Notes under the pieces: generated by a model | What the model was told of the DNA's origin: nothing | The model's database searches: none | The model's input: the letters and a program-made list of their open reading frames with translations, nothing else | Program-made: the position numbers and the translations under genes | IMG/VR virus record: IMGVR_UViG_3300020162_000595 | Coordinates: 1-43,075 of that record | Length of the DNA stretch: 43,075 nt | Direction: 5' to 3' (one strand) | DNA from: a virus | Shown here: piece by piece, positions 32,436-42,587 of the stretch | Position numbering within the stretch: the stretch's first letter is position 1 | Layout of the letters: each line of letters begins with the position of its first letter

Positions 32436-33434
32436 TCAGTTGAGGAAGGATGCGACATAGTCGCCTAGGTATTGCTTGCGCAATTCGGTACGCAGCACTG
32501 CTGCACGTTGGGTTAAGCCGGGAATCTTTTCTTCCTCGGCCATGCTCTTGCCCCAGCTAGTGTCGCTGGGTACAGGCACAGGGATAGTCCAGTTGAACCA
32601 CTTCTCCATGAACTCGCTAGCCAGTTCCATGCAAGCATGGAGCAGACACGCTGCCTCAAAGGCTACGCTCTGGTCAGCATCCACATAGCTAGCATCATGC
32701 ACGGTGTTCACGATGAGGGCGAGGCCATCGAAGTTACGCTTGGCATAGAAGGCACGGACAGTCAGCCACATCGCAGCCTTCATCCACTCACCGCCGCTAC
32801 CTTGAACGATGAAGTTCCTGATCTCAGTAGGTGAGAAGCTAGCGGTCTTGCCTCGGCGGCACAGGTAGGGCGGGCTAGGCTGCTCGTTGTACACATAGAG
32901 CTTACCATCAGGTGCCCGCAAGAACCCCTTGCCCAGATGGCAGATGACACCGGGCACCTCGGGGTGTGGCAGGGTACGCTCGGGCACACGGTTGGCGTTG
33001 ATCTCTGCCGTGATGCGCTCGTAATACTCAGCGATCTCAGGGTACCGTGCATCCTCAGCATCAGCCAGTGACTGCACCTCCTCCTCGCTCATGCCTGTGG
33101 ACTCAGCGATCTTGGCAACGCCAGCACCATAAGCTCTTTGAAACGAGTAAACTTTCGCCTTGGTACGCTTGTAGTCCCACTCCTTGTCGTACTTGTCACC
33201 CTTACACAGAGCGTACACCTCGTCGTACTCCATGTGTTCCTTGGCTGCAAGGCGCACAACGTGGAGGTCGAGGCCGCTCTTAAGGTCAGCGATCAACTGC
33301 TTGCACTGTGTCAGCACAGCCTGAACGTACACCTCAAGTGAACTGAAGTCCGACTGAATGATCTTGCCATCAGGCCCGAAGCGTGACACGAAGATCGTCT
33401 TGACATCAGACTTGTTACCCTTGGGAATGTTCTG
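32436..33434 (-). CDS. DNA polymerase I family, exon 2 (palm/fingers)
   Basis: The C-terminal 332 residues of a family A DNA polymerase. After splicing the exon begins QNIPKGNKSDVK, continuous with NPNL of exon 1. Motif A is IIQSDFSSLEVYV, motif B RTKAKVYSFQRAYGAG, motif C ALIVNTVHDASYVDAD; the metal-binding Asp residues of A and C are present, but the Glu normally following HD in motif C is Ala. Unspliced, the only in-frame start would be the ATG whose G is the last intron base, giving a fragment without exonuclease and thumb. Splicing is thus needed for a complete enzyme. Confidence 0.92.
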   Translation of the reverse strand, partial: QNIPKGNKSDVKTIFVSRFGPDGKIIQSDFSSLEVYVQAVLTQCKQLIADLKSGLDLHVVRLAAKEHMEYDEVYALCKGDKYDKEWDYKRTKAKVYSFQRAYGAGVAKIAESTGMSEEEVQSLADAEDARYPEIAEYYERITAEINANRVPERTLPHPEVPGVICHLGKGFLRAPDGKLYVYNEQPSPPYLCRRGKTASFSPTEIRNFIVQGSGGEWMKAAMWLTVRAFYAKRNFDGLALIVNTVHDASYVDADQSVAFEAACLLHACMELASEFMEKWFNWTIPVPVPSDTSWGKSMAEEEKIPGLTQRAAVLRTELRKQYLGDYVASFLN

Positions 33435-34160
33435 CATTATATTCAACAGCGGTCGTTAGTCGCTGCCCGCCTTACGGCTGCTGCATGTTGCCATGCAGAG
33501 TAGACTATATCATAGCAGGCGTACCTGCTCTCCGCGCTTCCAGCCACTTGGCTGTACTCTCTTTCGAGATAGTCGTTGCGCCTACCCAATGATGCAATGC
33601 AGCGTGTTCGCCCATTGTCAGCATAATCAAGTTGTCTACGTTGTTGTTGTGTGGGTTCTCGTCGCAGTGGTGTACGCAGTAGCCAGCGGGTACCTCTGTG
33701 ATACCCAGATGCTGCGCCATCACTACGCTGTGAACGAACACATGCTTGCTGCCTCTGCGCCCTGTGTACCAGTCAGGCTTGAGCATCATGAGGTAGCCTT
33801 TGTTGTCACCTACTACACCAATGTAGTTGTGGTGCAGCGCCGCTGTCTTGTTCTTCATTGGGTTAATATCACCCAGCTTAGACTTGCGGTAGTTGGCTAC
33901 CTTGCGCAGCCTGCGATACTCTGGGCAGTAGTTCTTAGCAACGTACTGCCACACCACCTTGTAGGATAGTGTCAGCTTGTTGGCAATCTCTTGCAGAGTA
34001 AGGTCAGTGTTCTCGTAGTAATACTTGATGTCCATCGTGTGCTCCTAAGCAGATATGGTGGGGTTGGTTCAGGATTGTCTGCTGTGCTACAGGTACCAGA
34101 ATATTCTGTACTCGCAGATGTCCCCTGAGTTCACGGAGTTTTACAACCTCCAGATAATTA
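33435..34160 (-). ncRNA. Group I intron in the DNA polymerase gene
   Basis: 726 nt. Exon 1 ends CAACCTT at 34161; the internal guide GAGGTTG (34150-34144) pairs with it over seven bases with the obligatory U-G at the splice site (P1). Directly 5' of the guide TCTG (34154-34151) pairs with the first four bases of exon 2, CAGA (P10). P3 can be drawn as TCAGG (34128-34124) with CCTGA (34073-34069); P7 as AGAC (34080-34077) with GTCT (33505-33502). P9 is CTGCATG-GCAA-CATGCAG (33498-33481), a 7-bp stem with GNRA loop. The last intron base is G. The HNH gene lies in the P8 loop and its stop codon overlaps the P7 3' strand. Confidence 0.92.
33505..34035 (-). CDS. Intron-encoded HNH homing endonuclease
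   Basis: A 176-residue protein inside the intron. The N-terminal 50 residues resemble a helix-turn-helix/AP2-like DNA-contact part (LTLQEIANKLTLSYKVVWQYVAKNY). The catalytic block is VFVHSVVMAQHLG ... GYCVHHCDENPHNNNVDNLIMLTMGEHAALH, the HNH pattern His-His...Asn...His. TAGGAG seven bases before the ATG supports translation from the unspliced or excised RNA. It would cut intron-less polymerase genes to spread the intron. The TAG stop lies in the P7 strand of the ribozyme. Confidence 0.93.
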   Translation of the reverse strand: MDIKYYYENTDLTLQEIANKLTLSYKVVWQYVAKNYCPEYRRLRKVANYRKSKLGDINPMKNKTAALHHNYIGVVGDNKGYLMMLKPDWYTGRRGSKHVFVHSVVMAQHLGITEVPAGYCVHHCDENPHNNNVDNLIMLTMGEHAALHHWVGATTISKESTAKWLEARRAGTPAMI

Positions 34161-35534
34161 AAGGTTGGGATTAGAACTGGAGAGGCGGGCTGTCACAGTG
34201 CTGCACATATTCAGCATGTGGTGGATGATGCCCTCGTTGTTCACAAGGGTAAGCATACCTGTCTCATTACCGTCCTCATCCTTGCGGTAGTAGTACGTGC
34301 CCAAGTCCTTGGTCAGGCTCATGAGTTCAGCGTATGCCTTGAGGAACGGCACACCGCTGGTGGCTAGCTCCTCGACAACAGCCGCGCTCGTTGACCACAC
34401 ACCGGGGTCAGCCCCTGCCCACTTGGGGTTGGGCTTGGTGTAACCAGTGAACACGAAGGGCCGCTTGACTATCCTGCCCTTGGGCTTGGTGTAGTCATCG
34501 ACCTTGGCCTTCTTGGTCTTGAACTCGCCAGCATTCTTGCCACCCCTGTAGATATAATAGTTGGTTGGGCTGCCCACCTCAAACGGGTCAACGAACGTGG
34601 TGCTCGCATCCTCCAATACCCATGCTACTACATCCCGCTGGGCATAGGCATAGGCTGCACTGCCATGCTCAGGTGGTGGTGTCCATGTGGTCGTGCCATC
34701 CTTGAGGTCGTACGCGCGGCAGTCATACTGCACCGTGCCACCGAAGAACAAGGCGCTACGCTGCACTGGGCTACCCCAATTGAAGTCGAAGGGCAGGTCA
34801 GCGGGCAGGTACTGAGCCAGCCCCTCGCTGAGTTGCTTGACTGTCTCCTCTAGCTTGGCCGCAAGCTCCATGCCTGTGGCCTTGTCAACGTACATGCCAT
34901 TGCGCTCAGCCTCAACGGTGAACAGGAGCGCACCCATGTTGAGCAGGATGCTGTTAAGCTGGCCGCACTCACGGGCACGGGCTATCTGCGCTAGTGCAAT
35001 CTTCTCTGTGTTCTCTACGTCACCGAGTTGGAACACACCGAACTCATCGTTGCCACCGCATAGGTAGCGGGTAAGCAGGGCGGGGTCGATGTCTGGTGTG
35101 TTGACACCAGCATTCCATAGTACCTTGACCTCATCAACCTTGACGTTGCCACCGTAGCGCGGGGCCACCTCGTCGAGGCTGAGCATCTGATCCTTCTGAC
35201 CCATGCCGTTGAGCAGGTACTCAGCAAGCTGACAGTCCCAAACATTACCGCCACCCGCTACATAGTCCATCCATGAAGCAAGGTTATCATCATCTTGCAG
35301 TGCGTGGAGCAAGTCAAACTTGATGTTAAACCCTATCAGCAAACGAGTATCGGCTAGCACTGGGCGCAGCCAGCCAGTAGGGGGGCGGCTATTACCGAAG
35401 CGGTGTTCAACAACAGCACCGCCTTTGTGTTTGAATGCGTGGGTCACCGCGTAATTGATAGGGTCGAATGGGTTAGCCTTGCGCTTGAAGCTGGTGCCTA
35501 CGGTAGTCTCTATGTCCCATGTAGTATAGCTCAT
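34161..35534 (-). CDS. DNA polymerase I family, exon 1 (3'-5' exonuclease and thumb)
   Basis: The N-terminal 458 residues of the replicative polymerase. Exonuclease motif I is TTWDIETTVGT (Asp7, Glu9), motif II GFNIKFDLLHAL. The later LNSILLNMGALLFTVEAERNGMYVD and DFNWGSPVQRSALFFGG belong to the thumb/palm boundary. It ends ARLSSSNPNL, the conserved strand that in other family A enzymes continues QNIP; here a TAA follows in the intron. Together with exon 2 the protein is 790 residues (T7 gp5 704). TAAGGT precedes the ATG, which overlaps the preceding stop in ATGA. Confidence 0.94.
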
Positions 35535-42088: not shown

Positions 42089-42309
42089 GTTGTGCTAATA
42101 GGCACACACACAATCCACTACGCTACTTGGACATTTAAGCATAGAATGCACGTTGTCTCATGTCATCACAACTCGACGCAGGTATACCCTTGTCGGCACT
42201 CATCTAAGCCGCATTACAGATAAAGCTACTGCACTACACCCATATGGGCTAATGTGCCATCACCTTACCTGCTGTAACGCTTCACAGCGCCATCAACTAA
42301 CCTGACTAA
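42089..42309. other. Early leader without recognisable gene
   Basis: About 220 bases between the most downstream sigma70 promoter and the doubtful frame. Only short frames are present; the longest on the minus strand has 22 codons and no ribosome binding site. Composition is more A/T-rich than the gene body. Possibly untranslated leader. Confidence 0.45.
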
Positions 42310-42331
42310 CCTTGACACTACTGTATCAAGG
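42310..42331 (-). promoter_or_regulatory. 5' stem-loop of early promoter 1 transcript
   Basis: Minus-strand CCTTGATAC-AGTA-GTGTCAAGG: 9-bp stem with one wobble. It begins about two bases after the expected start of promoter 1. It shares GATAC/GTGTC with the hairpin at 42531, while the lower stem covaries (CCTT/AAGG versus CTTA/TAAG). Confidence 0.7.
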
Positions 42332-42339
42332 GAGACTGT

Positions 42340-42368
42340 ATCTTACCACAATCTCCTAACCTTGTCAA
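42340..42368 (-). promoter_or_regulatory. Sigma70-type early promoter 1
   Basis: Minus-strand TTGACA (42368-42363), 17-nt spacer, extended -10 TGG-TAAGAT (42345-42340). Confidence 0.82.
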
Positions 42369-42374
42369 CTAGCA

Positions 42375-42388
42375 TCTTTACAGGTACT
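42375..42388 (-). promoter_or_regulatory. Partial phage promoter-like motif
   Basis: Minus-strand AGTACCTGTA, the first ten bases of the phage motif, lies between early promoters 1 and 2 in the same orientation. The last four bases differ (AAGA in place of GTAC), so it may be degenerate or accidental. Confidence 0.3.
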
Positions 42389-42406
42389 CGCTAACTCAGA
42401 ACCTCT

Positions 42407-42435
42407 ACTGTATCACAGTCTTATCAGCTTGTCAA
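42407..42435 (-). promoter_or_regulatory. Sigma70-type early promoter 2
   Basis: Minus-strand TTGACA (42435-42430), 17-nt spacer, extended -10 TGA-TACAGT (42412-42407). Spacer end ACTGTGATACAGT is identical to promoter 3. Confidence 0.82.
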
Positions 42436-42468
42436 CTAGGCTTACAAGTCACAGACTTACCTAGTGCT

Positions 42469-42509
42469 GATAGATAGCATGTGATCCAACACCTGTTGCT
42501 CTATCTATC
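42469..42509 (-). promoter_or_regulatory. Inverted repeat between early promoters 2 and 3
   Basis: GATAGATAG and CTATCTATC, nine bases each, are separated by 23 bases, which themselves hold CAACA..TGTTG. Could fold in the transcript from promoter 3 or bind a dimeric protein. Confidence 0.5.
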
Positions 42510-42530
42510 CGCTATCGACTAACCGAGTTA

Positions 42531-42551
42531 CTTAGACACTATGTATCTAAG
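42531..42551 (-). promoter_or_regulatory. 5' stem-loop of early promoter 3 transcript
   Basis: Minus-strand CTTAGATAC-ATA-GTGTCTAAG: 9-bp stem with one wobble, starting about two bases after the expected start site of promoter 3 and preceded by CTCC, as in promoter 1. Confidence 0.7.
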
Positions 42552-42558
42552 GAGCCAT

Positions 42559-42587
42559 ACTGTATCACAGTCTTAGCCTATTGTCAA
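42559..42587 (-). promoter_or_regulatory. Sigma70-type early promoter 3
   Basis: Minus-strand TTGACA (42587-42582), 17-nt spacer, extended -10 TGA-TACAGT (42564-42559). Confidence 0.83.

Follow-up and report, generated by a model that had tools for sequence, protein, structure and literature searches.

We find that the family A DNA polymerase gene of a T7-like phage is interrupted by a group I intron of subgroup IA2. In the window, which is the whole 43,075-nt stretch of virus record IMGVR_UViG_3300020162_000595 that was analysed, the 726-nt segment at 34160-33435 on the minus strand is identified as this intron from its sequence, the spliced-protein alignment, covariation and a covariance model. 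It starts with TAATTATCTGGAGGTTG and ends with AATATAATG, its first codon being an in-frame UAA and its last base the ωG. We are nearly certain of the overall account, in which a mobile group IA2 intron with an HNH gene resides in the polymerase gene and splicing would restore the polymerase mRNA. The intron is a newly found member of an already described family, and its presence is not itself the novelty; the interest lies in measurements on the overlap of the HNH frame with the ribozyme core and in a pattern of two insertion sites. The annotation is corrected to a single polymerase gene with an intron, instead of two genes and a nuclease.

Exon 1 (34161-35534, minus strand; 458 codons; PHROG 9556 and 17) ends in SSSNPNL with the codons CCC AAC CTT, and exon 2 (32436-33434, minus strand; PF00476, E 2.2e-22) starts with QNIPKG, encoded from CAG AAC ATT. 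Both align with intact polymerases, and when joined in frame at CTT|CAG, they make one 791-aa family A polymerase without a gap at the junction. Over its full length, the spliced protein is 71% identical to its counterpart in Curvibacter phage P26059B, and the figure for Aquamicrobium phage P14 is 53%. These two intronless polymerases have an empty site, an uninterrupted PNLQNIPKG, and are collinear with the spliced product, bearing out the claim of a first-pass annotation that ARLSSSNPNL and QNIPKG together form the unbroken family A motif. Unspliced, the reading stops at the UAA of the first intron codon, as it does at the same place in most members of the family set. This stop and the spliced alignment support two further claims, that splicing is needed for a full polymerase and that annotating two separate genes would be wrong. 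Incidentally, public annotation is inconsistent, as the split polymerase is entered as two genes in the records of phiL7, L13.2, APK32 and PSTRCR_114 (L001, L003, L009 and L010) but as a joined gene in those of PS3 and PhAPEC7 (L011 and L014). For counting, we take Klenow residue N675 as the reference, which presumably places the intron after codon 676 (Leu) in E. coli Pol I numbering.

Three group I features are present together, a U·G pair at the 5′ splice site, the ωG at the 3′ end (33435) and P10. P1 and the P10 strand (34144-34167; all elements are on the minus strand) are assigned from the sequence and from exon-IGS covariation in relatives. In P1, exon CAACCTT (34167-34161) pairs with IGS GAGGTTG (34150-34144) over seven pairs, the last of which is the U·G at the splice site, and in P10, TCTG (34154-34151) pairs with CAGA of exon 2. 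The P3-P8 catalytic domain with the P7 guanosine site is present along with P4-P6, of which P6 was seen in the alignment alone and is uncounted. P3 consists of CTCCGTG (34132-34138) and CGCGGAG (33536-33530), with two-sided changes in five of its seven pairs. P4 (TCAGGG/TCCTGA) and P5 (TCTGC/GCAGA) at 34069-34128 are supported by alignment and covariation. P5 has an extra hairpin (GTACAGAATATTCTGGTAC, 34118-34078), which within the compared set is common to the nearest IMG/VR relatives L005 and L007 only. A P6b-like hairpin, TGCT-TAGG-AGCA (34040-34051), contains the HNH Shine-Dalgarno AGGAG (34046-34042), and the corresponding stems of relatives differ in sequence yet stay complementary.

In the 3′ half of the core, P7 is formed by GACTAT (33569-33574) and ATAGTC (33508-33503), five of its six pairs being invariant in 38 rows and so uninformative on their own for covariation. 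P7.1 (CTC GAAA GAG) and P7.2 (CAGCC AAGT GGCTG), at 33541-33568, covary, as does the 3′ strand of P3 (33530-33536). P7.1 and P7.2 lie between P7 and P3′ in the layout CTCGAAAGAG-AGTA-CAGCCAAGTGGCTG, and it is by P7.1/P7.2 at this place with a GUA linker that the IA2 subgroup is recognised (PMC3428280). P8 (AGCAGG TACG CCTGCT, 33514-33529) has two-sided changes in all six pairs. P9 (CTGCATG GCAA CATGCAG, 33481-33498), capped by a GNRA loop, has all seven pairs standard in every row. P9.1 (GCC GTAA GGC) and P9.2 (CAGCG...CGCTG), at 33447-33478, are supported by covariation, P9.2 being the weakest helix (85% paired). Thus every element named in the first-pass annotation is found on the minus strand, from P1 with its seven pairs ending in U-G, through P10, P3, P7 and P9 with its GNRA cap, to the terminal G, and P4, P5 with its extension, P7.1, P7.2, P8, P9.1 and P9.2 are added to them.

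Phage records and IMG/VR supplied the 38 distinct introns in which covariation was examined. The 57 core pairs, in 11 helices, have standard pairing in 96.1% of the cells of this set; two-sided changes occur in 38 of the pairs and amount to 423 cells. None of 500 shuffles matches the percentage paired, the pair count or the double-change count, the mean of the last being 117. Slid partners give 31-46% paired and 41-59 double-change cells, a comparison biased in favour of the structure, chiefly for the percentage paired, because the window served as the template for drawing the structure. The many double changes are stronger evidence than the percentage paired.

Built from 17 relatives with the window left out, a covariance model spanning P7-P9 matches 33585-33470 with 127.9 bits (E 2.9e-27, the E-value being rough). 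The Pf-WMP3 intron, likewise absent from the model, scores 89.3 bits. This match and the covariation in 38 introns uphold the original claim that a group I intron at 33435-34160 splits the polymerase gene. A search with a generic group I model, the check proposed along with that claim, fell short where the family model succeeded: Rfam RF00028 (Intron_gpI) gives no match at its curated cut-off of 50 bits and a partial match of 19.1 bits at relaxed settings, an outcome that on its face might tell against the claim. With the same Rfam model, the phiL7 intron scores 31.7 bits and the Pf-WMP3 intron, whose self-splicing has been demonstrated (PMC3428280), 31.9 bits. Because both are below 50 bits, one of them being a proven self-splicer, the cut-off is uninformative where an ORF lies within the intron core, and an intron need not reach it to count as group I. 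Introns of this type with such an ORF are missed by the standard cut-off and are probably under-annotated in phage genomes.

A second match of the family model in the window, at 42431-42301 with 14.4 bits, lacks the P7 sequences and was rejected as chance. The region around it (42200-42560), which lies towards the right-hand end of the record, is non-coding with short inverted repeats. When 72 other sources were scanned, the IA2 core model found 96 matches, in L115, L132, L155, L162 and others. Several contigs in that scan have two to four matches, the 3′ core being common to many phage introns.

The HNH ORF (33505-34035, minus strand; 176 aa; stop TAG at 33507-33505) is of the I-PfoP3I/phiL7 gp45 type, matching PF13392 (HNH_3) at 1.8e-9 and phrog_7545 at 7.6e-46. 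Its product has the HNH motif in the C-terminal half and is homologous to a characterised enzyme, with identities of 68% to Xanthomonas phage L13.2, 67% to phiL7 and 44% to I-PfoP3I of Pf-WMP3. A homing function is suggested by analogy with this last relative. Matches to the HNH protein occur in 58 phage records, and among 84,980 bacterial and archaeal genomes, 142 pattern matches were obtained, none of which tblastn confirmed as a relative. No PDB entry matches the protein by sequence. Its predicted structure, modelled from the window and IMG/VR loci, has no Foldseek match in the PDB at E ≤ 0.001; 1u3e (I-HmuI) is matched at E 0.92.

In our reading, a mobile group IA2 element entered the gene directly behind the Leu codon that corresponds to residue 676 of E. 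coli Pol I. Its transcript would fold as a P1-P10 ribozyme, in which a P7-bound guanosine would cut after the U of the P1 U·G pair, and P10 would guide exon joining at the ωG, so that the polymerase mRNA would be whole again. As the first intron codon, the in-frame UAA would halt ribosomes at the 5′ splice site, keeping the core free of them. The HNH protein, made from the Shine-Dalgarno site held in the hairpin, would nick intronless polymerase genes close to the site, leading to intron homing. The 3′ coding end of its gene also serves as P7, P7.1, P7.2, P3′ and P8, so a single RNA copy could not be translated there while folded. It is plausible that a ribosome reading the frame to its end and a folded core exclude each other.

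The overlap is extensive. The HNH ORF starts 3′ of the Shine-Dalgarno hairpin, crosses P7 5′, P7.1, P7.2, P3 3′ and P8, and stops in P7 3′, so that the entire 3′ half of the catalytic core as far as P7′ is coding. The first-pass annotation had the HNH stop codon overlapping P7, and TAG does lie in the P7 3′ strand (33503-33508), but the overlap is larger than that, through P7.1, P7.2, P3′ and P8. For amino acids common to two relatives, the codon is also the same at a frequency of 0.89 in the 19 overlap residues (0.95 at the centre) versus 0.40 in the body of the protein. For four-fold codons, the same comparison gives 0.90 (0.99 at the centre) versus 0.31. These codon frequencies show selection at the RNA level inside the reading frame. 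The relatives thus provide a clean natural example of a single RNA stretch serving as protein code and ribozyme, with the effect on codons measured.

It had also been claimed that the stop in P7 ties endonuclease translation to ribozyme folding. That the ORF and the core overlap family-wide, with constraint on the RNA, agrees with this claim, but the position of the stop does not, as it varies in relatives from 61 nt before the start of P7′ (-61) to 54 nt after it (+54). Stopping in P7 is not conserved, and such a range makes the overlap of the stop with P7 incidental. It is accordingly improbable that the overlap works as a regulatory switch governed by where in P7 the stop falls. The UAG sits exactly within the P7 3′ strand, and ORFs reaching into cores are under tight control in other introns according to a review (PMC3984707), but its placement is not apparently selected, and the family-wide overlap could merely follow from ORF growth.

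The near fixation of synonymous sites in the overlap is as expected for a ribozyme under continuing selection, and it speaks against a decayed ribozyme, group I by descent but no longer splicing, with two polymerase pieces that assemble as a split polymerase. Such decay would fit the in-frame ATG that forms the last intron codon before exon 2 (ATG|CAG) and the two genes annotated in records of relatives. The ATG is not conserved, however, being replaced by TTG, AAG, CAG or AGG in relatives, the split point is within a conserved motif, and all core helices, the U·G pair, P10 and the ωG are intact, so we consider decay very unlikely. Still further from credible is a stand-alone HNH gene in the polymerase gene, with no intron and with fortuitous flanking complementarity. 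Intron-free HNH genes do occur between phage genes and the Rfam cut-off is not reached, but covariation in 11 helices, which no shuffle equals, already refutes this reading, and the E-value of the family model is also against it.

Among known introns, that of Xanthomonas phage phiL7 (gp44/gp45/gp46) resembles the present one in its insertion after codon 676 (PMC3428280), in its core helices, in its HNH protein (67% identical) and in the stop in P7′. It differs in belonging to another phage lineage, lacking the P5 extension and being 682 nt rather than 726 nt long. The Pf-WMP3 intron also has an IA2 core with P7.1/P7.2, UAA as the first intron codon, a C-terminal HNH, a Shine-Dalgarno in P6b and an ORF that begins in the P6 region and crosses P7, P7.1 and P7.2 (PMC3428280), whereas its site is 674, 6 nt upstream, and its HNH protein (I-PfoP3I, 44% identical) ends earlier. 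The introns of I-HmuI, I-HmuII and I-BasI (SPO1, SP82 and Bastille) are likewise IA2, in the same polymerase motif (site 674) and with HNH nickases (PMC3428280), but these are of another HNH type by sequence, in line with the PDB searches above. In the T7-like phages phiI and W31 (I-TslI), the examples given in the first-pass annotation, the polymerase gene does contain a group IA2 intron, but at site 881 according to PMC3428280, and the closer kin are of the phiL7 and Pf-WMP3 type.

Relatives in the polymerase gene are inserted after Leu 676 (14 rows, the Leu codon always CTT) or 6 nt away after Pro 674 (23 rows, the Pro codon always CCT), four rows (L021, L028, L053 and L061) having no assigned 3′ splice site. 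Each site class has a matching IGS, which every polymerase member of the set retains together with the U before the splice site. Since both intronless polymerases inspected also have CTT at the Leu 676 codon, this codon by itself is no evidence of an intron. The target codons are often AAY/GAY-CCN-AAY-CTN, an imperfect 6-nt tandem repeat, which makes the P1 substrates alike at both sites (..CCT| and ..CTT|), so that a small change of IGS would re-address the ribozyme. The ribozyme core tree, although short (199 covarying columns), needs six changes of site, at least two of which are forced by well-supported branches. A single clade for 676 is rejected by this tree (p-AU 0.0026) but not by the HNH body tree (p-AU 0.5). 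As a tentative lead, these trees hint that the family may move between the sites after Pro 674 and Leu 676, with endonuclease and ribozyme exchanged separately.

Two loci outside this pattern were seen. In Vibrio phage MJW (L020:1372-2023), a relative of the HNH protein lies between polymerase pieces, and exon 1 already has PNLQNIS, which places this relative downstream of that motif; no match to the core model at E ≤ 0.01 occurs at this locus. L083:1161-1718 contains a family core and an HNH remnant, with P1 and upstream sequence that do not fit the polymerase site, and this core is probably a same-lineage intron in another gene.
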